From Planctomycetaceae bacterium (GTDB taxonomy: Bacteria > Planctomycetota > Planctomycetia > Planctomycetales > Planctomycetaceae), in contig JAKFWC010000013.1 in the NCBI GenBank assembly GCA_021732975.1, positions 1 to 64,000 on the forward strand: a stretch of DNA of 64,000 nucleotides, given 5' to 3'. Position 1 is the stretch's first letter. Each line of letters opens with the position of its first letter. The translations under genes were made by a program, and so were the position numbers. Of this stretch, positions 14,073 through 53,500 are shown piece by piece. Under the pieces are notes generated by a model. The model ran no database searches. It had not been told where the DNA came from and worked only from the letters and a program-made list of their open reading frames with translations.

Positions 14073-16559
14073 TTACTCGATCGGAATGATCGTCGCGGTT
14101 GGGGCGGCGATGCGGGTCGCGATCTCATTCGTAATTGCACTGTAGAGATCGACCGACGTGTCTTCTGTTGAGATGCTGGCGATCAGCGAATAGCGGGCGG
14201 ACTTTTCGACGATTCCACTGTCGCGGCGATAACGCCACCAACCGGTTACAGGATAGACGGCAATCAGGTTCGACGATGCCAATTGGGCGGCGGTCCCGGT
14301 CCAAGCATCCGAGTGAATTGAACCTCGCACTACGAGATCAGTGCCAAGATCCCAGTTCCGCTCGTCAGAAACTGTACTTGGAGGACGGATGCGCTTCCCC
14401 TCGTCGGAGTATTCCCAGAACTCACGTGATAGACGAGACAGCATCTGATCGCGGGTTTCCTGAGGACGACGAACCGAAAAACGCAATCCGTGCGAGGCAT
14501 ATTGGTACTGAGCGACGTATCCCCGACGGGGCGGGTTCGGCTCAATGAAGTAGGAGAGGGTTACGCGCATTCGCACCTGTAGATTCCCAAGCTCTTCGAG
14601 CACTTCCCGCGGCATCGGCAGGTCGTGTAAGTGCAATTCGTGGGTCGCGTTATCAGATCCATCCTTCCGAAATGGCTGTAGCTCGTCTTGAACGACCATC
14701 GTCGCGAAGCCCCGCGCGGAACGGCGCGCCCTGTCGAGATTTGGAACTCCCATACCGTAGACGCGTACCCGGTTGCGGCGCTCGCGACGCGGAAACTCTG
14801 ACAGCATTTGCGGCGTCCATTCAGCAGAATGAACAATCAGCGCTCGAATCGACTCTGGCCAAAAGCTGGGATACTCGGCTTGAAGAATTGCGGCCATTCG
14901 TGCCGCCTGGGCTGTGGCGGCACTCGTGTCTCGCATCGTTCCGAGGAGAGCGTTGCTGGTTGTGCTCGACTGGGTCGTCAGGATTTCCAAATCTTCTGCA
15001 CTGGTGACGAAGCCACTTGCATCTTTAGCGTAGTTTCCACCTTCAAAGACAACGTCGGGCTTGTAGGGCCACGGCTCATCTCCCCAGCAGAGCGAAGTTC
15101 GACTTGCCGGCGACAGCGAACCCGGTGCAGCGATTGATGTGTATCCCTCCAACCCCTGCTCCGCTAGCCAGACAAGATTGGTGTATGCGCCGACGGTGAG
15201 GGCATTCCATGCCTGCGCCGGATCTTCCACGCTCGAAACATGGTTCTCCATTGGATAGTTCTTACCGACATCCTCACGGAGATTCCCAGCCGAGACGACA
15301 AGCAATCGGCGGAATCCATCCAACGCGCCGGCGCAGGCTTGATCGAGGGCAGCAGACCACAATGTCGGCCGCCACTGATCGTCGCTCGGGGCTGTGATCG
15401 CCAGGCAGAAGACCCGCTGGGCTTCCGGAGCAACCGTTTCTGCGATCGCCATCGAGCCGATACTGATCGGCCCATAATCCGGAGGGTCGTTGTGTCCGTG
15501 CCGAGGCAGAACCTTGACCGACTCCAGCCGATGCCGCAAAACGACGGACTCGCCGTTGTAGAGCAACTCACTTAATGAGCCGAATAAACAGACCCCCGCC
15601 ATCTGTGTGCCGTGACCTTGATGATCGTCGGCTCCCCACGATTCTTGCCATGTTTGCAGATGTTCCGACGAAAGCGCAGGTTCGAGCAGGGGGTGCCCAC
15701 GGTCTACACCGGTATCGAGAACGCAGACACGGACTGCTGAGTCTTCGGCAAACTGCGTACGGCGCAGTAAATCATTCACATACTCAGCCTGTCCCGCTGG
15801 GGTGAGTCGAGTGAACTCCCCTGCAACGATGTTCGCCCGGCGAAACTCGGCCAAGTGCCTAAGAAGTCCGGGAAACCGTTGCCACTGCGTTAGGGAAGCA
15901 TAGGCCAGGACGACAATACGCTCAGGAAACCGGATGCGTTGTCGACTCAGCGTCACCCCCTGCGGCTGGGCGGTATCCCGGAACCATTGTTCCACGTCGA
16001 AGCCCGGCTCGGAAGGGCGATCTTCAAGCCAGATTTCCCACCAGAATGACTGGTCGACGGGCGGAAGGACTTCCCCCGCCTCAGTCCAGTAGTCCGAGAG
16101 TTCTGCCACCTCGATCGTCGAAACACTGGCTGCGAGCGGCTCATTCTTCGGCTTTCCCGCAGGCGTGTCCTCGTCACGATAGGCACGAAACTTGTCGGCC
16201 AGCTTGCTCACTTGGCTATCAGGAACGGCGACGATGAACTCCTTGTGTCCGCTAACTTCGCGAGCGCTGATGACGCGGATGCCTTGCCGCTCGCTCTCCA
16301 GCCGCTGGAGTTCCAAATCGAAGTCCGAACCTTCTGCAAATCGCATCGGAATGAACTGAAGACCTTCTCGAACCGGCTCCGTCTGCTGCCTTGCGCGAGC
16401 GTTCCGCTCAGCGCGTTGGAGGTCTGAAAGCAGTTTCTCACCATGCGTCTTCCGCTCGGGACGTGGCGGGCTTTGACGCGGACCACCGCCGGATGACGTG
16501 CTGGTATAGCCCTGAGAGGCTCTGGATTCCTGCAAGAAGATATGGGGAAAGTCAGCCAT
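14073..16559 (-). CDS. ietS: Subtilase (S8) of an IetAS-like pair
   Basis: An 828-aa cytoplasmic-type S8 serine protease without a signal peptide. The catalytic Asp is in VCVLDTGVDRGHP (about residue 283), the His in DDHQGHGTQMAGVC (about 315) and the Ser in RDTSAATAQAARMAA (about 543). The long N-terminal and C-terminal regions are beta-rich and uncharacterised. It follows an AAA ATPase with a one-base TGATG overlap at its ATG (a GTG one codon upstream is an alternative). This ATPase-subtilase order is that of IetAS, reported as a toxin-antitoxin pair on an Agrobacterium Ti plasmid and later listed among anti-phage systems. The symbol is by architecture, not by measured identity. Confidence 0.82.
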   Translation of the reverse strand: MADFPHIFLQESRASQGYTSTSSGGGPRQSPPRPERKTHGEKLLSDLQRAERNARARQQTEPVREGLQFIPMRFAEGSDFDLELQRLESERQGIRVISAREVSGHKEFIVAVPDSQVSKLADKFRAYRDEDTPAGKPKNEPLAASVSTIEVAELSDYWTEAGEVLPPVDQSFWWEIWLEDRPSEPGFDVEQWFRDTAQPQGVTLSRQRIRFPERIVVLAYASLTQWQRFPGLLRHLAEFRRANIVAGEFTRLTPAGQAEYVNDLLRRTQFAEDSAVRVCVLDTGVDRGHPLLEPALSSEHLQTWQESWGADDHQGHGTQMAGVCLFGSLSELLYNGESVVLRHRLESVKVLPRHGHNDPPDYGPISIGSMAIAETVAPEAQRVFCLAITAPSDDQWRPTLWSAALDQACAGALDGFRRLLVVSAGNLREDVGKNYPMENHVSSVEDPAQAWNALTVGAYTNLVWLAEQGLEGYTSIAAPGSLSPASRTSLCWGDEPWPYKPDVVFEGGNYAKDASGFVTSAEDLEILTTQSSTTSNALLGTMRDTSAATAQAARMAAILQAEYPSFWPESIRALIVHSAEWTPQMLSEFPRRERRNRVRVYGMGVPNLDRARRSARGFATMVVQDELQPFRKDGSDNATHELHLHDLPMPREVLEELGNLQVRMRVTLSYFIEPNPPRRGYVAQYQYASHGLRFSVRRPQETRDQMLSRLSREFWEYSDEGKRIRPPSTVSDERNWDLGTDLVVRGSIHSDAWTGTAAQLASSNLIAVYPVTGWWRYRRDSGIVEKSARYSLIASISTEDTSVDLYSAITNEIATRIAAPTATIIPIE

Positions 16560-17554
16560 CACAATCCTTCATGAGCGGTCCGTCGCCGATCCTGGCGAAG
16601 CTGGATTGAGCGCTGCAGGTCGGCGGGAGCGATCATCCGACGATCTTCCAGAACTGCCATCTTCGCCGCTTCGTCGCAAGCGCGACAGATTTCAGCATGG
16701 CTGAGATTCACGGCTTGGGAAACCAATTGCTCGATCGTGTCAGAGCCCAACTGAAATGCCGACAGCCGGTTGGCAATGAGATCGTGCAATTCGGATTGCG
16801 TGGGCAAGCGGTAGCGGATCACGTCATCAAAACGACGGAAGAGAGCGTCGTCTAACATCCCTTCCAGGTTCGTTGCCGCCACAATGAGACTTTCGGAGTC
16901 ATCCTGCTCCAAGAACTGGAGGAACGAGTTCAGTACACGGCGAATTTCACCCACATCATTGCTACCGGCTCGCATGGAGCCGATGGCATCGAATTCGTCG
17001 AACAGGTACACACCACGCGTGTGGCGCATTGCCTCGAAGATGGCAAATAGCTTTGCAGCGGTCTCACCCATGTATTTGGTAATCAGCGAATGCAACTGGA
17101 CGGTAAAGTGTGGCAGTTTCAATTCTCCTGCCAGCGCCCATGATGTCATCGTCTTGCCGACCCCAGGCGGACCGACCAATAGCAGTTTTCGTCTTGCGGA
17201 GAGGCCGTGCTCGCGCAGTTTGCTCTGCTGTCGATACTCTCGAATCACGAGTTCCAGCGCCTCGCGTTGCTCCGGGGCTAGGATCATCTCCGTGAGTTTT
17301 GTCCGCGGATAAGTTGCTGACAGCAAAGTTGCCAGCTCACCTGAAGGACGCACGATCGGAACCGAGCCTCCGACCTTGGAAGTCCGCTGTTTTCCTTTGA
17401 TCTCGTCAACAAGTCGCTTGATCTCCGAGGCAAACTTGCCTTTGCCCGTACGCGCTTCGTGCGCAGCGATTTGCAGTGCAACGGAGACGAACATTTCACC
17501 GTCCGCCTCACTGTAGCTCTGCAAAAGGGCTTTCAGTTGTTGGGCCGTGGCCAT
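16559..17554 (-). CDS. ietA: AAA ATPase of an IetAS-like pair
   Basis: A 331-aa AAA+ ATPase. An N-terminal helical region (1-60) is followed by Walker A LLLVGPPGVGKTMTSWALA, Walker B VYLFDEFDAIG, sensor 1 LIVAATNLEG and an arginine finger region DDALFRRFDDV. It is closest to FtsH/katanin-like single-domain AAA proteins. Two adjacent ATG codons (17557, 17554) follow an AGGAGG site at 17560-17565; the second has the better spacing (5 bases). Its stop overlaps the subtilase start. In IetAS the ATPase is the immunity or control partner of the protease. Confidence 0.85.
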   Translation of the reverse strand: MATAQQLKALLQSYSEADGEMFVSVALQIAAHEARTGKGKFASEIKRLVDEIKGKQRTSKVGGSVPIVRPSGELATLLSATYPRTKLTEMILAPEQREALELVIREYRQQSKLREHGLSARRKLLLVGPPGVGKTMTSWALAGELKLPHFTVQLHSLITKYMGETAAKLFAIFEAMRHTRGVYLFDEFDAIGSMRAGSNDVGEIRRVLNSFLQFLEQDDSESLIVAATNLEGMLDDALFRRFDDVIRYRLPTQSELHDLIANRLSAFQLGSDTIEQLVSQAVNLSHAEICRACDEAAKMAVLEDRRMIAPADLQRSIQLRQDRRRTAHEGL

Positions 17555-17572
17555 CATGGCCTCCTCAATTGA

Positions 17573-17863: not shown

Positions 17864-18390
17864 GGTCGATGTTCTCCTCCTGAGGTTGTTCCTCCTCTCA
17901 GTATCGGACTTTCGGTGCAGAAAGTGAAGTCGCGGGGTTGATGCTGAAGCAGGTTAGGCGCTCGTCCCAGTGCGCAAGAATTCCGTATTCGCGCGAACGG
18001 TTGGAAAGGTCTTCCCCCGCTCGACCGATCCAACGCCCAACTCGCTAGATGGCCACCATTATGGCAAACCAGGTCAATGGGCTTCGGCTTTCCGGCCGGT
18101 GCGCACCGCCAGCATGGCCATCTGGCGAAGAGCGCTCTTCGCCAGATGGCTATCTCACCATGCCGTGCGTCGATCGCATCGGCCTTCTATTGTCAGATCA
18201 GGGACGATTCAACCATCGCACCTCACTTTCTCGGGCTCGCCCACGAAGAACCAAGCCAAATTCGGTGCGGGACGCTGTTCCCGCTCATCTGCTGAATTGC
18301 AGACGGAAAGGGGGGGTGTGCGCGGCAGCGCAACACCACAACAGTAGTAAGACGAATACCCGTAAAGGACAGGCATAGGCCATTCGAAGA
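17864..18390. other. Non-coding interval between IetAS-like and RT operons
   Basis: About 527 bases upstream of the small IetAS-linked gene and downstream of the reverse transcriptase gene. No reading frame here looks coding. The striking content is the 34-bp perfect palindrome at 18117-18150. The interval could carry the IetAS promoter, an RT-operon terminator or a structured RNA. Confidence 0.5.
18117..18150. repeat. Perfect 34-bp palindrome without loop
   Basis: Two 17-base arms (18117-18133 and 18134-18150) are exact reverse complements meeting at AGCGCT. With one G-T pair the symmetry extends to 18114-18153. No T-run follows on either side, so it is not a classical terminator. Confidence 0.9.
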
Positions 18391-19725
18391 TCACGCATCT
18401 CCCCGATTACTCCCTTCACTCGTAAGAACCTGCCATCGGGCATGTGCCAAACGGCATGTCAATTGAAGGTCACTCGAACGCAACTCGGTAAAGCCGCATT
18501 CACGGGCGATTCGGATCACTCGATCGACTGTTGCGGGTGTTACCGCATTCGTGAGAGCCGGACCCATTGCTCCCAGCCATCCTTCTGCGACTCCCAGTGC
18601 TGTCGCAACGGGATTGGGCCGGACGATGGATTCGGCGAATCCTTTCCTCAAGCTGTCGTAGGCTGTTCCCGGTATCGTGAAATGCAGATGCTCATTTCGC
18701 CAATAGGGATTCAGTCCCAAGACCTTTCGGTTCGGATGTTCCCTGCGGAGGTCCATGGGAAAATCCATCGGGGGGCGTTCCGGTTTCAAGGTAAAGCCGT
18801 GGTCCCTCAGGATGTCTTCACAGAACCGCAGGGCTTCTCGGCCCTCACGCACGCTTCGACAGACGATGTTGAGGTTGTCAACATAGCGCAGTAGAAGCGG
18901 AATCTCTCGAAACGCGGTTCCAAACCGGGCGTCGAGGAGGATGTGGAGCAAAAGCTCCACGGAAACCGGCGAGCTGGGCGAGCCCTGAGCCATGCCGGTT
19001 ACATGTCCAGAGCCATCATGGCCCCGAACGATGGTTTCGATCAGCCAAAGCAAGTCGGTGTTCGAGATGTGTCGCCGGTAGCATTCCAGCACCGTGTCAA
19101 TCGGCGCTGACGGGAAACAATCCCTTATGTCACTCACCACGAGGAACCGCGCATCGGATTGCTGCATCGCTGTCTGCATCACCGCGTAGACGTCACAGAC
19201 ATCCTTGCCCAAGCGGGGAAGGTGAGCCCGCCAGTAGGTGTCGAGCGCGAGTTGCAGCGCCTTCGCGATCACGCGATCCAAGATGCGATGCAACTGAAGT
19301 TCTCGATAGCGGCCGTCACCTTTCGGAATACGGACTTGACGCGTCTCGTGAGGCGTATATTCATGCGCGAGGAGCTTGCCGCGCACATGACGCAGGGCGG
19401 CGTAGATTTCCGAGCTAGTGAAATCGCCGTACGTGATTCCGTCGGTGCCTGCACCAGGCCCTCCTTCAGCGCGGAGAATGCGAAAGACCGAATGGAGCCG
19501 TTCAGGGGTCGCGAACTCCGACAGATCAAATGCGTTGATGTTGCTGGCGACATACGGGGGAGTCGTTCGTGACCGGGATGCACTGTCCGACTGGTTCTGT
19601 CTGGACCGAGCCCCCTCGGTTCGTCCCCGTCGACGAACGGTGGAAACACCGTGGATTGCAAATCGGTAGTCCGACCGATTTAACGCGGCATCAACGGCGT
19701 TGCTGGCGGGATTATCGCTGGTCAT
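18391..19725 (-). CDS. Reverse transcriptase with a YVDN catalytic motif
   Basis: A 444-aa RNA-directed DNA polymerase. The N-terminal GAGTDGITYGDF (about 91-102) and IPKGDGRYREL (133-143) are group II intron-like. Motif A is VVSDIRDCFPS (Asp at 199), the template-gripping motif is MAQGSPSSP (247-253 core) and the catalytic motif is YVDN (281-284) where YxDD is expected. The second Asp is Asn, encoded AAC, one transition from GAC. There is no maturase or endonuclease domain and no intron RNA was recognised. The C-terminus (about 375-444) is helical. Its ATG overlaps the stop of the helicase-like gene (ATGA, 19722-19725), so translation is coupled. Confidence 0.85.
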   Translation of the reverse strand: MTSDNPASNAVDAALNRSDYRFAIHGVSTVRRRGRTEGARSRQNQSDSASRSRTTPPYVASNINAFDLSEFATPERLHSVFRILRAEGGPGAGTDGITYGDFTSSEIYAALRHVRGKLLAHEYTPHETRQVRIPKGDGRYRELQLHRILDRVIAKALQLALDTYWRAHLPRLGKDVCDVYAVMQTAMQQSDARFLVVSDIRDCFPSAPIDTVLECYRRHISNTDLLWLIETIVRGHDGSGHVTGMAQGSPSSPVSVELLLHILLDARFGTAFREIPLLLRYVDNLNIVCRSVREGREALRFCEDILRDHGFTLKPERPPMDFPMDLRREHPNRKVLGLNPYWRNEHLHFTIPGTAYDSLRKGFAESIVRPNPVATALGVAEGWLGAMGPALTNAVTPATVDRVIRIARECGFTELRSSDLQLTCRLAHARWQVLTSEGSNRGDA

Positions 19726-21209
19726 CGATGGGCCTCCGGTTGTCGATCGAGGAACATGGCCAGCCGTCCCTGCGTGGCCGAGATGCCAATTGGGAAGATG
19801 TCGTTTTGCAGGTACTCCCGTTGACGGTCGCGACTCAAACGCTTGGCAACTTGGTTGTGACCGTCCAGAAAATCGATGATCAGTAACGGATTGCTCGATC
19901 CGACAGCGGCACTGAGCCAGCGGCGGGGAATGGCATCGAGCGAATTTCCACCGCCGACCCAGACGACGACATCTGATGTTTCGCCACGAAATCGCGGCGC
20001 AGCGCTCGTGAGCACAATTTGGTGCGAGCCGTCCAGCCACTCTCGTCGCTGCTGCCGTACACGGTCACAGAAGTTCGCATCCAGACCTTCAAGGGACTCG
20101 CTGGCAGCAATGACCGGCCAATCCGGCAGCAGACGCGACAACTCAACGGCGTGAATCGGGCGGTCCACGAGAATGGTCACCGAAGGGGATGTATAACCGG
20201 CTTGCCTGTAGCGCCGCCCCACATCACCAAAGCGCCGCCGATTCAATGGACTCGCGGAACGGAGTCCCTCGACAAGTTGCTTGATACGGCGATTGCGACG
20301 CTCGTGCTGCCAGTAGCAGCGCCGTCCAAAATGGGGATCCGTGAGGTCCAAATCGATTGCTGGAGGCGGAGTCGGCATCCAAGCGACATGAACTTCTCGG
20401 CGCACCTCCAGTCGTGATTGAAGTCGAATGATGTCCGGCCCGAAAGTCGCCATCGTCGCATCAACGGCCGAAGGAGCAGGCACCTGAGTCACGTCGATGA
20501 GACCGTAGAGGCGAAACGCCGCATCGACCTGCGAGAGCGTCATTTGCATGTCGGCGTGTTGGCAAGCTGACGCGTCGAGCAGAATGACGATACCGGCCGT
20601 GGCAAAGTCAATATTCGCGGCTTCGCGCGGTGTCGAGCAAAGGACTCGCGGCAGCTCTTCGTCGTCCAGGTGCTCAAGAAGTGGAAGCGAATATCGAGTT
20701 GAAATGCTCCATGCACGAATCTTCCTGGCACAAAGCGATTCGGCAATTCGCTTGAGCTGCCGGGCATGTCCCCCCAACACAACGATTCGAGTGTCAGGAA
20801 AGGCTGTCGCCAAGTCGCCGATGACATCCTCGGGGTGAATCCCGGGGTGAACTAAGATTTGTCCCAAGGGAGTTTGGAACGCAAATTGTGCGACTTCAGG
20901 ATACGACAAGAACTCCGGATGAATCGGACCAGGCAATGGCAGAATGGCTGGTGTGACGCGCCGCTGGAGTCGAATCCCTCTCCGTCGAGCCAGAAACTGA
21001 AGTGCGGGAAACAACCCCGAATTAGGCAGTCGCCTTCCATCCGCCGCTCGCAGCAGTGACATTGTTTCCTTGCGGACTACGCTTCCGTGCTGCGGATCAT
21101 CGTGTGTGACGAGGCGACGCCCAAGGAGATCACCCAACCGCTGGACAATGTCGCTACTGACCGAAAGATGCTGACCGTTTTGCTCCAGGAGCAGTGATTC
21201 TGAAACCAT
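19722..21209 (-). CDS. Helicase-like protein lacking ATPase motifs (pseudohelicase)
   Basis: A 495-aa protein whose strand order resembles an XPB/RecG-like SF2 helicase: ILVHPGIHPEDVIGDL like motif Ia, IVILLDASACQHADM where motif II should be, SVTILVDRPIHAVELSRLL and QIVLTSAAPRFRGETSDVV like motifs IV-V, and LLIIDFLDGHNQVAKR near the end. The Walker A lysine loop, the DExH box and the motif VI arginines are not visible. It is probably ATPase-dead, so it may act as a DNA- or RNA-binding scaffold. It lies between parB and the RT gene and is coupled to the RT. The helicase relationship is inferred by eye and is moderate. Confidence 0.55.
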   Translation of the reverse strand: MVSESLLLEQNGQHLSVSSDIVQRLGDLLGRRLVTHDDPQHGSVVRKETMSLLRAADGRRLPNSGLFPALQFLARRRGIRLQRRVTPAILPLPGPIHPEFLSYPEVAQFAFQTPLGQILVHPGIHPEDVIGDLATAFPDTRIVVLGGHARQLKRIAESLCARKIRAWSISTRYSLPLLEHLDDEELPRVLCSTPREAANIDFATAGIVILLDASACQHADMQMTLSQVDAAFRLYGLIDVTQVPAPSAVDATMATFGPDIIRLQSRLEVRREVHVAWMPTPPPAIDLDLTDPHFGRRCYWQHERRNRRIKQLVEGLRSASPLNRRRFGDVGRRYRQAGYTSPSVTILVDRPIHAVELSRLLPDWPVIAASESLEGLDANFCDRVRQQRREWLDGSHQIVLTSAAPRFRGETSDVVVWVGGGNSLDAIPRRWLSAAVGSSNPLLIIDFLDGHNQVAKRLSRDRQREYLQNDIFPIGISATQGRLAMFLDRQPEAHR

Positions 21210-21248
21210 GTTTTAGAGCCTTCGACAATCTTGCGTGTTGGAAAATAT

Positions 21249-22151
21249 TTACCGCGCTGCGTTGGACAATTTGTCCGGGCGTTGTGCAGCCGAATCGCTC
21301 ATGATCGATTCCTTTGCCTGCTGATGGAGCACACGCTTGCGGTTCGCCCACGTGTCCATGAACTTGGTCGATTCATCGAGCAGTTGCACGACGTCACCGC
21401 CACGAAGCTGCAAACGATCAAGAGCTTTGATATTTCGGCTCAAGACTTTCAGGTTCGTGTGAAAGTACCGCAGCAGTTCTTCACCCATTTCTGCGACCGA
21501 TTTGCTCGTCACCGGCTTGATGATGTTGTAGCGCCGCAACACGTCCAAGACAGATTCTTCACTGCGCAAAGCGCTGATCACGGTGTCGCGTTTTGCAGTC
21601 GGGAGTTGAAGAAGTTTTTCGGCCTGAAACTTGTTCAGCCGGTTGGTCGAGATCATGTCCTGAATGTCGCGCGGCAGCTTCAGGAGACGCTCCAATCGAT
21701 CCAGCGACCGGCCTGACTTCCCGGTCCTAAGGCGCGCGGCAAGGCGATCCCGGATGTCGCCCGACGAAGTTTGGGTGGCCGCGCGAACCGCGGTCCTTTT
21801 TAGCTCGTGATAGCACCGTGCCAGGGCTAGATCATCCAATTGCTGTCGTACGAGGTTGTCTGTGATTAACTCGGCGACCGCCGCACCACTGCACGGATCG
21901 GGGAGATCCCATCGAATGACGGCTTTGATGCTTGTCCAGCCCAGCAATCTTGCTGCCGCCACGCGACGGTGACCACGGATGATGGTGTCGTCGGGGCAGA
22001 TATGGATCGGCTCTTGCTGACCGCGTCGACTCAAGTCATCCGCTAATTCTTCAATGTCCGCGTGGGTTGCTGGAGCGAAGAACTCCGACTGCCGTGGATG
22101 GTCACGCAGCAGGCCCAGCTGAACTTCGTCGGCCGCGAGTTTCAGGTCCAT
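21249..22151 (-). CDS. ParB/Spo0J-like nuclease-fold protein
   Basis: A 300-aa ParB-family protein. It has an N-terminal ParB/sulfiredoxin-like domain with the signature IIRGHRRVAAARLLGW (about 58-73), then QQEPIHICPDDT upstream and ITDNLVRQQLDDLALARCY downstream, followed by a helix-turn-helix-like linker (LERLLKLPRDIQDMIS) and a C-terminal helical tail. Many members are plasmid or ICE partition and regulatory proteins. No ParA is visible. The ATG at 22151 has a GGAG site eight bases upstream. It heads the minus-strand RT operon, divergent from the MerR-like gene. Confidence 0.85.
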   Translation of the reverse strand: MDLKLAADEVQLGLLRDHPRQSEFFAPATHADIEELADDLSRRGQQEPIHICPDDTIIRGHRRVAAARLLGWTSIKAVIRWDLPDPCSGAAVAELITDNLVRQQLDDLALARCYHELKRTAVRAATQTSSGDIRDRLAARLRTGKSGRSLDRLERLLKLPRDIQDMISTNRLNKFQAEKLLQLPTAKRDTVISALRSEESVLDVLRRYNIIKPVTSKSVAEMGEELLRYFHTNLKVLSRNIKALDRLQLRGGDVVQLLDESTKFMDTWANRKRVLHQQAKESIMSDSAAQRPDKLSNAAR

Positions 22152-22259
22152 CAATGCACTCCGGGTGATTGCGTTTCCGCACACTGATGGCCCGCAGTGT
22201 TGACCTGCATAGTGCAAAATGGCACTGTGTACGTCAAGTTGGCGACCTAAGGAATGTGA
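22152..22259. promoter_or_regulatory. Divergent promoter region with two small dyads
   Basis: The 108-bp space between parB-like and MerR-like genes holds two dyads: ACACTG-N8-CAGTGT (22181-22200) and AGTGC-N6-GCACT (22211-22226), the second close to the MerR-like start. An AAGGA ribosome site lies just before 22260. A regulator-bound divergent operator is likely, but the exact promoter boxes are not placed. Confidence 0.5.
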
Positions 22260-23027
22260 ATGAGCGACGTAACGTCACGGGACATCATGCGTGCTGCGGA
22301 GATCACCAATGTGGCCACGCTCGTTCGATGGCATCTGCATGAGGGATTGATTCCGCATCCAGAAATTCGCACTCATCCCAACGGGCGCGGGAAAATTGCA
22401 TACTGGCCGGAATGGGTGCTCCATCGCTGTGTGCGAATTAAACAGCTTCGTAAAGGGGGAAAGAGTCTCACGCAGATCCGCGAAGTGCTAGGCAGTGATT
22501 GGGAAACCGCAGGAAGCCAACCCAAACGGCGTTATCGATTCGCTGAAACCAGCCGCAGCATCGATGAGTCGGCCGCGCGCAGCAATATCCGACGCGAAGT
22601 CAATCATTTTTTGTTCGATTGGATGAAGCAGCTTCAGGCTGCGATTCATAAAACAACAACTTTCATTATTGCGGAGGATGTCGTTCAGAAGGCGCTCGCA
22701 CTGTTTGAACAAGGCGTCAATCCCGTCCTTGTGCTCGCCGGGGACAAGGCGGTTTTGACAGCGGATTTTGTGGTCAGCATTCATCTGGCGAAATGCCAGT
22801 CGATCGACGACAGTTTCATGGTGATCCCCGTCTGGAAGGAGTTGTCTGCGTACTTGGCAAAACTCGCAGCGATGCCAGAACAGCCAGTGATTTCCCCGTG
22901 CGCGAAGGTGATTCGGAAGACAAACTCTTCCAGCGAAGAATCAAAGGTCATCGTTCTGGACTCGTGGGATTTCGAGATTGAGGCTCCCCGCCGTCGCCCA
23001 AGCAAAAGGACGCCTCGGAAGCCTTGA
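22260..23027 (+). CDS. MerR-like DNA-binding regulator
   Basis: A 255-aa protein with an N-terminal MerR-type winged helix-turn-helix: SRDIMRAAEITNVATLVRW, then YWPEWVLHRCVRIKQLRKGGKSLTQIREVLG. It carries a long unrecognised C-terminal part (about 95-255) with a lysine/arginine-rich tail (PRRRPSKRTPRKP). No cysteine cluster for metal sensing is seen. It diverges from parB and precedes the large zinc-finger gene by 130 bases, so it probably controls the divergent promoters. Confidence 0.72.
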   Translation: MSDVTSRDIMRAAEITNVATLVRWHLHEGLIPHPEIRTHPNGRGKIAYWPEWVLHRCVRIKQLRKGGKSLTQIREVLGSDWETAGSQPKRRYRFAETSRSIDESAARSNIRREVNHFLFDWMKQLQAAIHKTTTFIIAEDVVQKALALFEQGVNPVLVLAGDKAVLTADFVVSIHLAKCQSIDDSFMVIPVWKELSAYLAKLAAMPEQPVISPCAKVIRKTNSSSEESKVIVLDSWDFEIEAPRRRPSKRTPRKP

Positions 23028-23157
23028 ACGACTCGATATTTACTTTTCAGGCGGAGTACACGCAGTCCAACCGAGGAGTTCGGCAGCATCCTCGATCTGG
23101 CTCCTCACAATCACTGAAGCACTAGTCGTCCCAAGTAATCCGATGCAGGGAGGCCGT

Positions 23158-26052
23158 ATGTCAAATCCGGTACGATCACTGGCCAGCCGAGTGGATTGGC
23201 GAAAAGTATTTGCGGTCATTGGTCTGGAGGACCCCCGCCGTTCCGATTTGCCGCAATCGATGCTCTGTCCCTTGTGCGAGACGGGCGAGACGGGCATGTT
23301 GACGGTCATGTCCGACCAGGTTTTGCATGGGCAATGGTTTCATTGCGCTACCTGTCAGTTCGCCGGAGATGTGATTGAATTCGCTGCACGCGTGTTGAAC
23401 TGCTCGATCGAACAAACCATCAACTATTGCGATTCACACAAGTTATTTGAGACATCGCTGTGTGATGACGATGTCGCGACGTACCAATCCCAACAGGTCC
23501 AGTATCGCGCGAGAATTAAGAAATTCTGGGAAACGGCCAAGCGTGCGCCGGCGCAGTCGTCCACGATGGGGACTTGCGGACGCTTGCTCTTACGCAGATA
23601 TAGCCTGCAAGACCTGATCTATCGGGAGACTTGGAACAGCCGTGGCGGTCAGCTCTTCGGCATCGCAGAGCGACAGGAAATTGAGAATCTGTTCGCTCCA
23701 AAATCGTTTGAAATCCAAGAGCGAGTGAACCGTCAGGGTCAGACGTCCCGTCGCCGGGGAGGTGGTCCGGGAAACCGGCGTGTGTTCTCAGGAGGGGATT
23801 GGGACGAAGTCCTCGTCATTGCGCACTCCGATCTGCCTGGGCGGGTCGTCGGTTTCACATTCATTGGTCGCGATTTCGATCAGCCCGAAGTGACCTTCAA
23901 ACGGGTCAATTTGGGATGTTGCGTTTCTCGCCCGCGGGAGTCCGGCTTTGGTTTTCTCGAAGCGGTGAACGGCATCCCACATGCGGCTTTAGGACGACAC
24001 GTCTTTGTCTTCCTTGATGTTGAAATCGCTTCGCTACTACACGCCCGCCATTTCCGCGATGGCATCCGTCCGTTACCGATCTTGCTGGCGAAATCAACGC
24101 GAGATGTGCGTCCCTTGTCTCTGCCGCCGGATTTGGCAGACTGCAAGCTCATCTTCTGCGGCCCCCAGATGGAGACACTTCCCTTGGCGAAGGCGTACAA
24201 CGGGTTGGTCTCAATGTATTCGGTTCCTGAGTTGGAGATTCAGGAGAATCTCAAGCACCGCTCGTCATTGATGTTTCTGTCACTCTTTCAACGCAGGGCG
24301 ATTCCCTGGACAGAGGCGCTGCGCCGACAGTTGTCGACCGCTCCGAAAGCGCACGTGGAGGTCTTGTTGCATAGTCTGCAACTGAGTCCCCACGAGTCGG
24401 AAGTCCTGCAGCGCGGTTTGGGTGGAGTTGAAGGTGAACGGTTCGCCGAAGTGACTCCGCACCGTTTGCGTGGCAAGCAGATTCCAGTCGGCCCATTTAC
24501 CGTCGAAGAGACAAAAGAGGGATGGATCGCTCGGAAGTCGGGAACCGAGCAAATGATTTGCAGTTACCCCATTCGGATCGAATCGATCTATAAGTCGGTG
24601 ACTGGGAACGTCGCCTATCACGTCGCGGTCTATTTGCCGAACGAAACCTTCAGGTTCATCGCGCTGGCACGAGACCTGAATCGCGCAACCCTGTTCGATA
24701 TGGTCGCGAACGAATTGCGGGACCAGTCGCACGAACACCTGGCGTTTGCCAGGCACAAATGGGCCAAGCAGTCCCTGTCGCTGGCGCTGGAGTTCAGTGA
24801 ACCGCAAATGATCCCCTTTGCGGATCGTGTCGGATGGAATGCAGAACGGATGCGATTTCAGTTCCCGCAATTTGCCGTCTTGAGCACAGGAGATGTCGAT
24901 TCCACTCCAATGCCCGTCGTCCCCGAATGCGGCCCGATTCCCGCTGCCGACTTGTCGCCACCCGTTCCTTCTCGTCAAGCCGCCGAAATGCTGTCCCAAC
25001 CCACGTTTGCCACTGGCGTCATCTGGGCGTTGGCGGCCTGCGTGGCCCACAATCTGTTGGCAGGGAACTGTACGCGACAATCCATTGGCGTCATCTTAGA
25101 CGGCCCCTTCGCGCAGGAAACGGGAGGTAAGGTGGCAGCGGCGCTGGGATGCGGGTGCGCCGATGTTCAGGATCGTCGACATCAGTCCGTCCTGAAATCG
25201 ATCTCCACTGCATGTGGCGCACATGATTTCCCGACCGTGGTGAATTTCGGCTTTCCATCGAAACCCGATGTCACGACGGACTGGATCGATGATCCGCACA
25301 TACGTCATGCGATCTTGCCACTCCCATCCCACGCTGCAATCGCGGTGGCCCTCAACCACGGCTTTGTTCGCCTCCGTTCGCACGAATTCCCGGTGCCGCT
25401 CGGTTCACTGGCGTCCGCCGCGGGATGGATCATTCCATCGTATCTGGCAGATTTGTGCCGCCGTAAAAAGTTAATGGATTTCCCATCGCCACACTGTGAG
25501 CTGGTCTCTGTCCTCCACGACATGGCGAGTTGGTTCGAACGAAATGGAGGGAATCCTAAAGCGGCGCTGCGAGCAGAAAGCGTGCTGACCTTTGATGCCA
25601 TCGCTCCCGCGAGGGCATTTGTGGAACTAATTGAACACTTGCAATCGAATCAAGAGATTGCTTGCGGTATTCGGTCGGAGATGGATGCGGCCAATTCGAA
25701 GGTTCCGGTGGCAGTCATTGTTCCGGTCTCGGACGATGGCCAGTCCGATGCGATCCAAGTCCGCCATTGGGTCATCAACGAGGTCTTGCGGCGAAAGCGA
25801 GTTCTGGCGATTCAAATGGATGAGGTCCAGACGGACTTGGAGTTCCACTCGGCCATGCGCGGGACGATCGAGAATGATGAGGGGATAACTTGGTTGATCG
25901 ACGCCGGCTGGTGGAAGCAGGTCAGTACGGCTGTTCGACAGAAGTTGCGGCCCACATCCACATCAAAGGCGACTAAGGTCTCGAACGACGGACCGTCGGA
26001 GTACGAATATCATCCCGCACACCGCCCCTGTGTCAGTAATTCAACGCCATGA
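23158..26052 (+). CDS. Large CHC2-like zinc-finger protein with degenerate P-loop
   Basis: A 964-aa protein starting at an ATG with a GGGAGG site (23148-23153). Near the N-terminus a C37-x2-C40 ... C63-x2-C66 cluster (SMLCPLCETGE and FHCATCQFAGDVIEFA) resembles the DnaG CHC2-type zinc finger, so a primase-like relative is suggested. About residues 643-658 read GVILDGPFAQETGGKVAAA, like a P-loop with a poor glycine pattern. The middle has no clear TOPRIM acidic cluster. It could be a mobile-element primase-helicase relative that has lost activity, or an unrelated DNA-binding protein. It is transcribed away from the RT operon, behind the MerR-like gene. Confidence 0.6.
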   Translation: MSNPVRSLASRVDWRKVFAVIGLEDPRRSDLPQSMLCPLCETGETGMLTVMSDQVLHGQWFHCATCQFAGDVIEFAARVLNCSIEQTINYCDSHKLFETSLCDDDVATYQSQQVQYRARIKKFWETAKRAPAQSSTMGTCGRLLLRRYSLQDLIYRETWNSRGGQLFGIAERQEIENLFAPKSFEIQERVNRQGQTSRRRGGGPGNRRVFSGGDWDEVLVIAHSDLPGRVVGFTFIGRDFDQPEVTFKRVNLGCCVSRPRESGFGFLEAVNGIPHAALGRHVFVFLDVEIASLLHARHFRDGIRPLPILLAKSTRDVRPLSLPPDLADCKLIFCGPQMETLPLAKAYNGLVSMYSVPELEIQENLKHRSSLMFLSLFQRRAIPWTEALRRQLSTAPKAHVEVLLHSLQLSPHESEVLQRGLGGVEGERFAEVTPHRLRGKQIPVGPFTVEETKEGWIARKSGTEQMICSYPIRIESIYKSVTGNVAYHVAVYLPNETFRFIALARDLNRATLFDMVANELRDQSHEHLAFARHKWAKQSLSLALEFSEPQMIPFADRVGWNAERMRFQFPQFAVLSTGDVDSTPMPVVPECGPIPAADLSPPVPSRQAAEMLSQPTFATGVIWALAACVAHNLLAGNCTRQSIGVILDGPFAQETGGKVAAALGCGCADVQDRRHQSVLKSISTACGAHDFPTVVNFGFPSKPDVTTDWIDDPHIRHAILPLPSHAAIAVALNHGFVRLRSHEFPVPLGSLASAAGWIIPSYLADLCRRKKLMDFPSPHCELVSVLHDMASWFERNGGNPKAALRAESVLTFDAIAPARAFVELIEHLQSNQEIACGIRSEMDAANSKVPVAVIVPVSDDGQSDAIQVRHWVINEVLRRKRVLAIQMDEVQTDLEFHSAMRGTIENDEGITWLIDAGWWKQVSTAVRQKLRPTSTSKATKVSNDGPSEYEYHPAHRPCVSNSTP

Positions 26053-26495
26053 CGGGGCCAGGCGAGCGAGAACTGAAACCGGCGAAAGTCGCGTCCCATT
26101 CGTCGTTTCCTCAGGTCGTTCTTGAAGTTCGGTCGTCTGTCGTTATTTTGCGGCTCATGAACGCCGCAATCAGTCCGACGAGCGACGATTCCATTGCGCG
26201 GCGGTCATGCGACAGTATTTTTCACGAACTTCAGGGCAGTAAACTTTTGAATGCGGCGCTCCCACTAACCTCTTCGGTTGCCGTTCGACTGCCCGTCCAC
26301 GATCCAGAACGGTCCGTTCCCTCTCAGCCCTGTGATTTAGTGCTGTCCCGGCTGATAGGTAAGAAAAAACTGATGCGGCCGCCCAGAAGGGCGGCCGCAG
26401 TGTGCGGGCGTGGAGTGCCTCGGAAATTGCCGTGTCATCCATCAACGAAGCCGGGGTATGGCTCCGGCGGGCTTGGCCACGAATAACGTGATTGC
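26053..26495. other. Intergenic region after the zinc-finger gene
   Basis: A 145-codon frame starts at 26049 with an ATGA overlap on the preceding stop, but its composition looks random and I do not support it as a gene. The stretch contains the terminator-like hairpin at 26374-26399 and otherwise nothing that I recognise. Confidence 0.45.
26363..26399 (-). terminator. Intrinsic terminator for the 26.5-28 kb minus-strand genes
   Basis: An 11-bp G+C-rich stem (26374-26384 with 26389-26399) closes a four-base loop. On the minus strand the stem is followed by three bases and then TTTTTT, the usual U-tract, so it should terminate transcription coming from the small membrane protein and ligase genes. 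Confidence 0.72.
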
Positions 26496-47532: not shown

Positions 47533-50500
47533 ATGAGCGAAACGACCGCGAACGGCAAATTCCCTGCGCCAGATGGCTCGCTATCGGCAACCGCGAGAAC
47601 CAGTCAAAACCGAGCGACATGTCCGCAAGACCAACAGGATTTGGAATCCAAGCTCCGAAGTCAGGTCATAAAATGGCAGAGCAAGTTGCTTGATCTGGGA
47701 AATCGCAATTCCCTTATCAACTGTTCGTTTAACGCCTCGCGTGGGGTGGTCGAACTAGTCACGCCCGAGACGGAAATCGTCTGGAAGAAACTGGCCAGTG
47801 ATGGAACTGCTGGTTCGAATTCTATGCGATTTCCATGGCGACATGACCTCGTCGCGCCTCCTCCAGGTTTTGAGGAAGATGATGCAACGGCAACTGCCGA
47901 CGCAGATTCTACCGAGAAGAAGAAAAAGGAGTGGAATCCGCCGCTGGAAGAGTGCCGTGCGTCACGCAAGCTCGGTGAGCGTGACTTGCTGACACCGTTG
48001 GGTGACCGCGCTCTGGATCGCCGCTTACGCACGCTCGATGGCCATGCTCACCTATCTCTTTCCGAACAGGGCGTGCATTGTCTGTATGTGGCATTTGGTT
48101 TCTTGAAATGGTTTGAGTCGATCGACAGCGATGTCGAGCATTTCTCTCCCCTAATGCTGGTGCCGATGTCATTGTCGCGTGCGTCCGCTGACGCGCCTTG
48201 GGAATTGATCGAGGCGGAAGACGACGCGATCGACAATTTGTGCCTGCGCGAACGGCTCAAGCAAGACTTCGGGATGTCCCTGCCATCTTTGCCAGATATC
48301 GGTGATCTGGAAGAGGATGGGGCGCGGTTGAGGTTTCTGAATGCGGTTCGGGAAGCCGTCGCCGCGAATGAGCGCTGGGAAGTGCAGGATCGTAGTGCGC
48401 TCGGTCGTTTTGCGTTTCCTAAGGTTGCGATGTGGCAGGATCTGGGAGACCATGTCGACTCCGTGCTGGCCAACGCCCTATGCCGGTCAATTGGTGGCGA
48501 TGAGACAATTCCACCGCAGCAATCGTTTGGCTTTAAGACGCCGCTTCCCGAAGCCGCCACTCTCGACGACGAAATCGCGCCAGGCGAAATCAAAACCATT
48601 CTGGATTGTGATTCCAGCCAACTGGAAGCCATCATCGCTGCGCGACGGGGCGTCAGCTTTGTCCTCGATGGGCCGCCTGGGACCGGCAAGAGCCAGACGA
48701 TCGCGAACATCATTGCCGACGCCTTGTCGCAAGGTCGCCGGGTGCTGTTTGTCAGCGAGAAGGTCTCGGCGCTGGAGGTCGTGAAGCGGCGACTGGATGA
48801 CTGCGGTCTGGGAGACTTCTGTCTGGAATGCCATTCCAGCAAGGCGAACCGTAAGACCGTATTGGACGAGCTGAAATACTGTCTCGATCTCCCGGTCGAA
48901 GTTTACGACGACGTGACGCCGAAACTCGATGAGGCCAAGCAAAGGCGGACGTTACTCAATAACTATGTCCGTTCCATCCACCGCCGGCGTCAGCCGCTGG
49001 GTTTGTCTCCCTACGAACTCTACGGACATGTCTCGCGGTTTCATCGGCTGGGACACGCCGTGAAATCTCGCTGCGAGTTGCCCAGCGTCGAGGCGATGGA
49101 TCGCGTGCGTTTTGAGAATTGGCTACAACTGCTCGACCGTGCCACGGAATCGGCCGACGTGATTCGGAGCCATCGGCGACATCCCTGGCGTGGGTGTCAG
49201 TTGACCACTCGGACTCTGACGCTCTCGGACGACCTCCAGCATCACTTTGGCCTGCTGGCGGCCGCATTCGGTGCGATTCACCAAGCGATTTCGCCGATGG
49301 TCCAGCAAGGGCTCCTGGCGGATGAACCTACGCCCATGTCGCTGAACGGTGTCTTGCAGTCCTTCCGCGATATTTTGAGCATCCCTCATGTTCCTTCGGA
49401 CTGGTTTCATGCTCCGCGCGAAGTTGGCACGGCGATTCTACGTCGCTGCGAGGCGACACGGAATATGGATGAACATCGAGCGAAGTTGCCACAATTTATT
49501 CAGAATGTTGAAGTTCACTTTCCGGGCACCTTGACCGGACTCAAAATCACTGCCGAACTAGCCATCTGGTTGGAGAGGCTGAGTGGGGCGCTGCCGCAAA
49601 CTGTCCGCCAACAGCAGCAGTTCCTCAACGAACCGGTCCAGAATCTCCGAAAGCTCGTCGAATCGATCGAAGCCGTGTCGACAGCAGCGGCCTCCGTGAT
49701 TAGTCAACTTCCCGTCCCAGTGCGAGCCGATTTGCCACCGTATAAGTTGCCGGCTTTGGCTGATCTCGCCAACTTGGTGGCGAGTGCCTTGCCGCTACGT
49801 CCGGAATGGTTGCTCGCCGAGAATTGGCCGAAACTGCGCGTGGCGAGTCACGCCGCGCTGTCCCAACTCGACGAAGCCACGCGCATCGCCAAGCGTTTGG
49901 AAAGTCGTTTAGCAACCGACCAGTTGATGGTGTTGAGCCAGTCGGTCGCTGGTCCCGAGCGACTGGAAGCCGCTTGGGAGAGAGTGAAAGCAATTTGTCC
50001 TGAAGGGCATATCGACGAGTTGCCGCTTCTGCAAGAACAAGCCGATGCAGCCCAGTCGATGCTGCGGGAACTGCAAACAATCGTGCGCGAGATTCTCTAC
50101 AGTTGGGGTATCGAAGCGGAAACGAACATGACCTTGTCGCAGGCCCGTTCGTTGGAAGTCGCGATTCCCTTGATCCTGGACATGACACACTTGCAGGGGG
50201 CGTGGCGCGATCCCGGTGTTCGGGGAAGAATCAGTAAAGCGTGCGATGCGGCGATCAGCGACTTGCAGGAAGCGTCCGAACTGCGCGCACAATTAGAAGA
50301 GCGACTTTCGCATCGAGCCTTCAAATCGTCCGGAGCAGCTTTAGCCGATCGTGCCCCGTCTTATCAGTCGATTTGGAAACGCTGGTTTGGTGGATTCAAT
50401 GCTTACCGGGGCGAAGTCGCAGAGCTGTTCAAAAGCGGTTGTCCCGCCACCGCGATCCTGTTGTCGGATCTGCTCAAGCTACGCACCTGGCACCGGCGAC

Positions 50501-53500
50501 TGACGGAGATCGGTGAGACCGCCAGTGAATTGGCAGTTTGGTTACCCCCGGAGTTCCCCGTGGATGATCTCTCGGCATGGACCAGTTTGCGCGAGAGTCT
50601 GCATGGGTTTGAGCAGTTTGCGAATTCTGCTCCAGACGTCGCCAGCCGGTTGCCGGCGCGAGCCGTGGCCGTGGACCGGTCATTTTTGACGACTTCATTG
50701 AACCAGTTTGCTTCTCAGACCCAGCAAATACGGTCGGCGATTTCCGCCACATCCCTTGAAGGTGCTCTCTCTGATCAACTGCCGCTGGCCGATGTGATTG
50801 TGCAGCTGACGCATCTCTCCGAATCGATTGCAAATTGCCGATCTGCGCACGAAGTGTCGTCAGCCTGTTACACGGTTCGTCCCCGAACGCTAAAAACGCT
50901 GTTGGAAGATTTCCAATTCGCAGCTCGGTATGTGGAGCTTCAGAATGAGATCACACGACAATTTCGTCAACTCGTGGATCTGCTGCCGCCCGAAGCCACG
51001 GCCACCGATCCGGCCCTCTGGCAGCGCGTGCAACGGAGTATTCTGGCGGCCGAGCGTCTGAGCAAGCTGGTTCCGTCGCTGGAGAAGTATCAGGACGTTC
51101 TCTGTCAGGCAGGACAGCCCGATCAGTCTGTTTTAGCCGAATCAGCCAGCCATTTAGACGCAGCCTATCGATCGTTCCTGTCGGTGATCCAAGCCACCAC
51201 TCCGCAATTGGCATTGTTTGCGGATCCTCTGACGGTTGAGGAACTCATCCGACGGCCGATGGCCGAGTTACGCACTGCGGCGCAGTCGGCACTGCCTCTG
51301 CTCACGGAGAGACACCAAACGCTCATATCACTGCTCCCCGTTTTGCGGCCTGATGATGATGTGGCGCTGGAGGCCCTGCCGATGGCTCAGTCGTCCGTGG
51401 AAGCCATCCGCCTCAGCCTGAAAGAGCTGGCCGATAGTCTAGCGATTCTGAGGGAATGGAATGTGGAGCCGGCATTTGATCTCGCTGACGGTGGTCGGAC
51501 AGAAGCGACATGGATTCTGGAACAGGCGAAAGCCGGCGGTATCTCTCCATTGATGCGGGCAGTCGCCACCTCTGCAACCGTCCGACAAGAAGTGGCTCGC
51601 AGCCTGGAAACCTGCCAGCGTGCGCTCGGGGGTGACTTCCCCATTTCAATCAAATTTCTGCGAACCGTCATGTCCTTCCAATCTGAGACCGGTCATGGAC
51701 TCACGATTCCACAGATGCCAATTGGTTTGCTGGGCAATCATCTGCAAGGGCTTTCCTCTGAAGTCGGCTCGCTGGATGAGTGGTTAAAGTTCTACCGTTG
51801 GCAGCGCGACATGGAGGAGCATGGGTTCGGAGGCGTCGTCGAAGAATTATTAGCGACCCGATATTCGCCGGACGAAACCAAAAGCGTGATCGCAGCACGA
51901 TTCTTCCGCCTCGTCTTCGATCAGTTCGCGAAAGAAGACCGGCTCCTCGGTGAGTTTGATCTCGAAGCCCATGAGCAATCGCGGGAACGGTTCCGCAAAC
52001 TCGATGAATGGGAAGTGAGAGCCGCTTCGTCGCGCATTCGTCAGTACCAGTTAGGGCGAGATGATCGCCCACGATCAGGTTGGTTCGCCGAAGCGACATC
52101 CGAACTCGGGATTTTGCAGAAGGAGATTCAGAAGAAGCGACGTCAGCTCCCGTTGCGAAAACTCTTTTGCGAGATTCCCAGTGTGCTCCAGCGGCTGAAG
52201 CCGTGTATCATGATGAGTCCGTTGTCGGTCAGTACCTTTCTCCAGTCTGATGAACTCCGCTTCGACCTAGTGATCTTTGACGAGGCGTCGCAAGTCTTCC
52301 CCTGGGACGCAATGGGAGCAATCTACCGCGGGAGTCAACTGATCGTCGCCGGTGATGAGAAACAGTTGCCGCCGACCAACTTCTTTAACCGGGCGGACAT
52401 TGAATCGTCCGACGATGAAGATGCGGATATTGGGGATTTCGAGAGCATCCTTAGTCTTTGCAAATCCATCGGCATGCCCGGCCGTGGGCTCCGCTGGCAT
52501 TACCGCAGCCGACGCGAACCGCTAATTGCTTTTTCCAACCGGCATTTCTACAGCGGGAATCTCGTAACCTTTCCCAGCATCCGCGATGCCAGTAGTGACG
52601 CTGTCCGGTTGGAGTTCGTTCCGCAAGGCCGTTGGATTGATCGCGCCAATCTTCCCGAAGCCGAACGAGTCACAGACCTGATCATCCGACATCTGAGGAC
52701 ACGGCCTGAAACGTCGCTGGGGATCATTGCCTTCAATCAGTCTCAGCAGACGGCGATCGAAGATGCGATTTACGAACGTCGCCGCAACTATCTGGAGGTT
52801 GAGACGCTGTTTCACACGGGGTTGTCGGAACATCTGTTCATCAAGAATCTAGAGAACGTCCAGGGAGACGAGCGGGATGTCATCATTCTATCGATGGGTT
52901 ACGGCTACAACGAAGCAGGCAAGTTTCTGAAGAACTTTGGTCCGATCACCAAGTCCGGCGGTGAGCGACGCTTGAACGTCGCCGTGACCCGAGCGCGAGA
53001 AGAGGTCATCCTCGTCGCATCAGTGAAATCGGCCGAACTGGATCTTTCCGGAAGTACGAGCCTGGGATCGCATCTCCTTAAAGGCTATCTCGACTACGCC
53101 GAACGGGGTGTCGACTCTTTGGCCCGCGAGATTGCCTTGATCACGGGAGAAGCAGAGTCGACTTTCGAGCAGGAAGTCGCCGCGTCGCTCATTGCAAGGG
53201 GACTGCACCCCGTGGCGCAGGTGGGTTGCGGGGGCTTCCGCATCGATCTGGCACTCAAACATCCCGAACGTCCCGGCGAGTTCTGCCTAGGGATCGAATG
53301 TGATGGTGCGACCTATCACTCCTCGAAAACGGCGCGTGACCGGGACCGCATTCGCCAGAATGTCCTCGAAAATCTGGGGTGGAATATTGTCCGCATCTGG
53401 TCGACCGACTGGATTCGCAATCCCGATCGACAAATTGAACGTGTGCTGGCAGTGTTTGAAAGGACAAGCGCCATCCATGCAAGTCCTGACGCAGATCGAA

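Follow-up and report, generated by a model that had tools for sequence, protein, structure and literature searches.

Three genes on the minus strand and a structured RNA located 3' of them occupy the central part of the locus (Table 1), which lies in a window of 64,000 nucleotides, the whole stretch of a Planctomycetaceae contig (JAKFWC010000013.1) that was analysed. The genes encode a ParB-family protein, a helicase-like protein of 495 residues and a reverse transcriptase (RT), and the last two overlap by ATGA; all of this is as given in a preliminary description of the locus, which missed the structured RNA. The ParB gene faces a divergently oriented regulator gene followed by a gene for a primase-like protein, and the RT is flanked downstream by a gene pair resembling IetAS. 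Elsewhere in the window, a helicase/nuclease-type protein of 2094 residues (47533-53817) matches the defence candidates PDC-S37 and Hhe.

Table 1. Features of the RT locus, with positions in the window.
Feature	Position	Strand	Remarks
Reverse transcriptase (RT), 444 aa, motif C YVDN	18391..19725	minus	RVT_1 match
Asn codon AAC of RT motif C	18874-18876	minus	RYVDNLN context
Pseudo-helicase, 495 aa	19722..21209	minus	degenerate XPB/SSL2-like SF2 by profile alignment, without Walker A
ATGA overlap of the end of the 495-aa protein gene and the start of the RT gene	19722-19725		
ParB-family protein, 300 aa	21249..22151	minus	TIGR00180 match
Structured ncRNA core, three hairpins and conserved GCGANCC	18234..18333	minus	3' of RT
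Wider structured region	17960..18390	minus	3' of RT; contains ncRNA core and palindrome; fold z = -5.2
Long near-perfect palindrome	about 18115-18151		downstream of RT
MerR-like regulator	22260..23027	plus	divergent from ParB; element backbone
CHC2 zinc-ribbon primase-like protein	23143..26052	plus	backbone; 65% identical in G443
IetS-like subtilase and IetA-like AAA pair	14073-17557		directly downstream of RT module; PADLOC E = 1e-29, 1e-66

Relatives of the RT were gathered by searches at family, class and phylum level, and each was examined in its own locus. The loci were collected via RT or partner searches, and the co-occurrence counts given below are conditional on that. An initial scan of genome contigs detected no relatives, and no second RT copy was found in the RT's own genome, which is incomplete. 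The RT alignment comprises 67 sequences, 39 with asparagine and 28 with aspartate at the second position of motif C. Four of the 28 Asp RTs are without a partner, which leaves 63 family relatives (39 Asn and 24 Asp); two of the 39 Asn loci are cut by contig ends, and 37 can be evaluated. A match from Streptomyces (L077) was set aside as a partnerless group II-type RT with the motif YADD.

The window RT matches the RVT_1 family with a score of 58.6 bits (E = 9e-16, cut-off 29.6). The double aspartate of motif C is regarded as a hallmark of RTs, and its second acid normally binds metal. Motif C of the window RT reads RYVDNLN, with the first aspartate intact and the motif A aspartate present as Asp199, which agrees with the preliminary description. 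The Asn clade has all the features of RVT_1 (the motif A Asp, QG of motif B and xDD of motif C) except the second Asp of motif C. All 39 Asn RTs contain D199 (motif A), D283 (first Asp of motif C), R141, G248 (motif B) and F/Y204, which forms the steric gate, while Q247 is found in 38 of the 39 and the lysine of motif D in 37 of the 39.

Of the 63 relatives, 39 have Asn and 24 have Asp as the second motif C residue, and none has another residue. With the trait residue masked, a branch with a support of 100/100 (99 in a quick tree) separates the Asn RTs from the others, and the replacement of D by N requires one state change on the RT tree. A point mutation of this copy alone, which had been raised as the simplest objection to the motif, is rejected by the presence of Asn in 39/39 members of the clade. 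The dN/dS ratios of 0.18-0.28 between close pairs of the Asn clade indicate that its RTs are under purifying selection; values of up to 0.6 occur in some more distant, high-GC pairs. The tree and alignment support an asparagine that is ancestral to the RT clade and has been selected. Neutrality or loss of function at the site should have let other residues in, and the exclusive tolerance of Asn therefore argues against decay. We consider the Asn RTs to be probably active polymerases. Asn at the equivalent position of motif C is compatible with activity in viral polymerases, and is required in those of Mononegavirales (PMC4634563). No RT papers on a YxDN-type motif C were found in the open-access full-text literature. 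Fusions to a C-terminal RNase H-like domain occur only in some of the Asp members (L034/L036/L067, L072-L074, L163, L167, L169 and L170).

The 495-residue protein has no match in Pfam or in other family HMM libraries, and a profile search of the PDB gave weak matches only, including eIF4A (E = 0.02). A profile of 58 homologues could be aligned to one of XPB-like helicases from planctomycetes, with 249 columns matched (hhalign P = 1.1e-8, probability 95.6), and the controls gave P = 0.84 for the reversed template and P = 0.24 for the RT profile. The alignment is colinear in the N-terminal half, beginning ahead of motif I and ending beyond motif III. None of the 58 aligned proteins (0/58) has a Walker A (P-loop) at motif I, and DExH and motif VI (QxxGRxxR) are absent at the aligned positions across the 58 members, which extends to the family what had been noticed in the window protein. 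The homology and the missing ATP site support the interpretation of the protein as a genuine, ATP-dead relative of SF2, degenerate and XPB-like, and the earlier designation as a dead helicase has held; we refer to it as the pseudo-helicase. Homology between the partners of Asn-type and of Asp-type RTs extends over 451 columns. AlphaFold predictions from one or two sequences had a pLDDT of 37 for the RT and the pseudo-helicase.

The pseudo-helicase gene is positioned directly upstream of the RT gene on the same strand, or is fused to it, in 35 of the 37 evaluable Asn loci (35/39 overall), and the same order is present in 21 of the 24 Asp loci; these frequencies rule against chance neighbours. 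Six of the 35 Asn loci have the two proteins in one shared reading frame, and the fusions represent at least two independent events on the tree; L037 and L156 are examples of the fused form. The Asn RT L066 has no pseudo-helicase in the 1.9 kb upstream, and L147 is likewise without one. In comparisons of several related loci, divergence peaks in the pseudo-helicase, which exceeds both flanking genes, and synonymous sites contribute to the excess along long stretches. This suggests that alleles of the pseudo-helicase have been replaced between loci, as by recombination. Two loci of one genome (L138 and L139, G678) have RTs that are about 90-95% identical in DNA over roughly 1 kb and pseudo-helicases with only distant similarity, which could reflect copying of the RT gene alone or a swap of the partner.

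The 3' flank of the RT gene in the window is strongly structured and is nearly identical in G442, a relative missing most of the RT. In L032, L033 and L064, conservation of the flank extends past the RT stop codon. Across the loci with the structured RNA, the first hairpin begins 54-84 nt past the stop. A covariance model built from L063, L031, L032 and L033, with the window left out, was searched against 979 kb from 67 loci, with E-values from a short calibration. In addition to the four source loci and the near-identical L064, the matches with E < 0.001, ten in all, comprise sites in the window, L138, L139, G442 and G216. All ten (10/10) are positioned 3' of an RT or an RT remnant. In the ten-sequence alignment, 96.7% of cells pair, and ten pairs have compensatory changes. 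The covariation of 0.419 compares with 0.194 ± 0.026 in shuffled alignments (0/500 reach it) and with at most 0.145 in slid controls. The element is a newly found structured ncRNA, conserved in its base pairing and in its position. The palindrome in the same region has a single occurrence in the genome.

A refined model identified eight RT-linked sites in 8 genomes, plus one chance site, among 170 genomes of the order, and the ncRNA was single-copy per genome wherever it was found. The chance site, in G502 (E = 0.0028), has no RT nearby, and a weaker copy is present at the equivalent place in L143. The nine RTs that carry the ncRNA form one clade with a support of 100/100, and the ncRNA is demonstrated in this one subclade, in nine intact loci and two RT remnants. 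It was not seen in other Asn subclades, some members of which have ordinary terminators at the 3' position instead, and z-scores of 3'-flank structure over all loci do not separate the ncRNA from terminators. Three Asp-type loci (L175:1726-2130, L178:5480-5868 and L182:7764-8170) have a conserved, highly structured gap of about 400 nt between the pseudo-helicase and the RT, which may hold a second class of RNA, three sequences being no proof of it. From gene order and alignments, the pseudo-helicase and the RT (HEL-RT), joined in the subclade by the ncRNA, almost certainly form a conserved module.

The ParB-family protein scores 56.2 bits against TIGR00180 (E = 3.7e-15), just under the curated cut-off of 58.5, and 22.1 bits against HTH_ParB (cut-off 22.6). 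Fourteen loci, some of the Asn and some of the Asp type, have a ParB gene next to the module or close by, and MerR-like genes are near 10 loci. With no more than 14 loci having ParB beside them, the arrangement of three genes is a special case of the conserved two-gene module. A lack of co-occurrence elsewhere, named in the preliminary description as the result that would speak against a conserved system, was thus not observed: the pseudo-helicase and RT recur together, with ParB in a subset of loci. The role of ParB as a guide is not supported, and most loci have no ParB. The constant partners of the RT are the pseudo-helicase and, in the subclade of the window RT, the ncRNA.

The window and G443 have a common ParB-MerR-primase backbone with 68.7% DNA identity over 4.8 kb. 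In G443 this backbone holds an Asp/RNase H module and a 79-residue remnant of an Asn-type pseudo-helicase, which indicates that HEL-RT is exchangeable cargo. Two genomes of the same genus as the window retain the ncRNA beside damaged RTs: in G442 the C-terminus of the RT alone is left, and the IetAS region is deleted to a near-clean junction, and in G216 the RT is internally deleted. Tyrosine integrases, DUF1580 proteins and serine recombinases are encoded near the modules of relatives. Among 88 neighbours surveyed, genes for defence were scattered and formed no uniform island; defence genes are few in these neighbourhoods, and integrases and transposases are commoner. Two clusters of neighbour proteins (2 and 3, e.g. 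L145:5562-6392 and L145:6711-7301) recur beside HEL-RT in 17-18 loci and have no Pfam match. An origin from a plasmid, phage or viral contig was set aside, as PLSDB, INPHARED and IMG/VR contain no close relative at the sensitivity used. The modules sit in islands of the integrative or defence kind, where they have been gained and lost. The IetAS pair beside the window module, together with the integrases, recombinases and DUF1580 genes in relatives, makes the original suggestion of a mobile-element or defence module reasonable, and for the defence role itself the indications are evenly balanced.

We propose, with an even chance of being right, that the module is a ribonucleoprotein system of Planctomycetota, carried on mobile or defence islands, in which an active Asn RT is combined with the ncRNA and a pseudo-helicase sensor. 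The RT would bind the 3' ncRNA as a template, a primer platform, or both, and the asparagine would alter the use of metal or the rate of the reaction, by analogy with the polymerases of Mononegavirales and birnaviruses. The pseudo-helicase, which is the fast-changing part, would bind nucleic acid and act as sensor or adaptor. The complex may produce cDNA or a signal upon the arrival of invading DNA, as retrons and DRT systems do, and ParB, where present, could tie it to DNA or to autoregulation. The more far-reaching claim is possible, although we lean somewhat against it: that this is the first cellular RT lineage with a natural obligatory Asn in place of the second catalytic Asp that still polymerises, that it forms a ribonucleoprotein with its own 3' ncRNA and an XPB-like, ATP-dead sensor, and that it represents a new class of RT-based immunity.

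The RT and the pseudo-helicase are both without canonical catalytic residues, and the acid replaced in the RT is one that normally binds metal, which would be consistent with an Asn RT that no longer polymerises and serves as an RNA-binding platform for the ncRNA and its ATP-dead partner. This is unlikely given that the motif A Asp, the first motif C Asp, R141, QG, F/Y and Lys are kept in nearly all 39 sequences, that Asn alone is tolerated whereas decay would scatter residues, and that the Asp members pair with an equally ATP-dead partner. The backbone common to the window and G443, and the integrases and DUF1580 genes in relatives, could instead mean that the RT serves, with ParB and the primase-like protein, the replication, partition or stability of an integrative element. 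However, the backbone of G443 carries a different module and the remnant of an Asn-type pseudo-helicase, as expected for exchangeable cargo, and most HEL-RT loci have no ParB, so that we regard a stability function as rather unlikely.

A selfish retroelement, the RT of which would copy the 3' RNA by target-primed reverse transcription, is improbable. The structured RNA beside the RT is reminiscent of the 3' UTR that some non-LTR elements recognise, and the patchy distribution and the RT remnants in the same genus are in line with such an element, but each genome with the RNA, among the 170 of the order, has it once, the RT's own incomplete genome has no second copy, and Rfam detects no intron ribozyme. 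The divergence hot spot formed by the pseudo-helicase between better conserved genes might also be the product of diversity generation, with the RT mutating the pseudo-helicase. The region contains no template/variable repeat pair, and synonymous sites share in the excess divergence along long stretches, a pattern that recombination would produce; this mechanism is very improbable.

Under the proposed ribonucleoprotein system, an RT family with Asn throughout a whole branch, coupled to a pseudo-helicase, looks like a previously undescribed RNA-protein machine, plausibly a defensive one. A deep clade in which the Asn is fixed and the rest is kept makes the role of the second acid in metal choice, speed, fidelity and substrate testable in natural enzymes, with the Asp sister enzymes as natural controls. 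Classifiers of defence systems and of RTs would label the system defined by the pseudo-helicase and the 3' ncRNA as a generic or group II-type RT, and this system may offer a new RNA-guided DNA-writing complex.

The comparison with known systems supports the view that the module matches no named RT class and that the known classes fit it poorly, in line with the first impression that the arrangement lies outside retrons, diversity-generating retroelements (DGRs), group II introns and named defence RTs. The top RT profile is that of group II intron RTs/maturases, together with group II-like and CRISPR RTs (TIGR04416, E = 2e-27); its score of 96 bits is far below the curated cut-off of 300. Rfam identified no intron ribozyme in the region or in eight relatives, and a group II intron RT/maturase was rejected on these grounds. 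The module further differs from group II RTs in the Asn of motif C and the helicase-like partner. An RT with a compact structured ncRNA, sometimes with a partner gene, is reminiscent of DRT10 (UG17), DRT9 and DRT2, for which the combination of RT and ncRNA is the common layout (PMC12632851). UG17 is the top UG model for the window RT (E = 2e-11), but the generic RT model is better (E = 1e-26), and generic group II-type RT models score far higher than UG models. In contrast to DRT/UG systems, the window RT has YxDN and not YxDD, a pseudo-helicase partner, and the RNA 3' of the RT. By both best match and motif C, it thus appears to fall outside the DRT/UG-Abi group. The RT, ncRNA, accessory protein and defence-island setting resemble those of retrons, whereas the ncRNA is downstream of the RT, there is no known effector domain, and the retron St85 model scores 27 bits against a cut-off of 235, which places the module outside the retrons. 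A DGR was rejected because no template/variable (TR/VR) repeat pair is present within 17900-26100. The pseudo-helicase has N-terminal homology in common with XPB/SSL2-like SF2 helicases, but is missing the Walker A of motif I and QxxGRxxR, and by motif it is not a helicase. Active enzymes with Asn at the second position of motif C are found in the polymerases of Mononegavirales and birnaviruses (PMC4634563), which, as viral RNA-dependent RNA polymerases, provide a functional analogy only.
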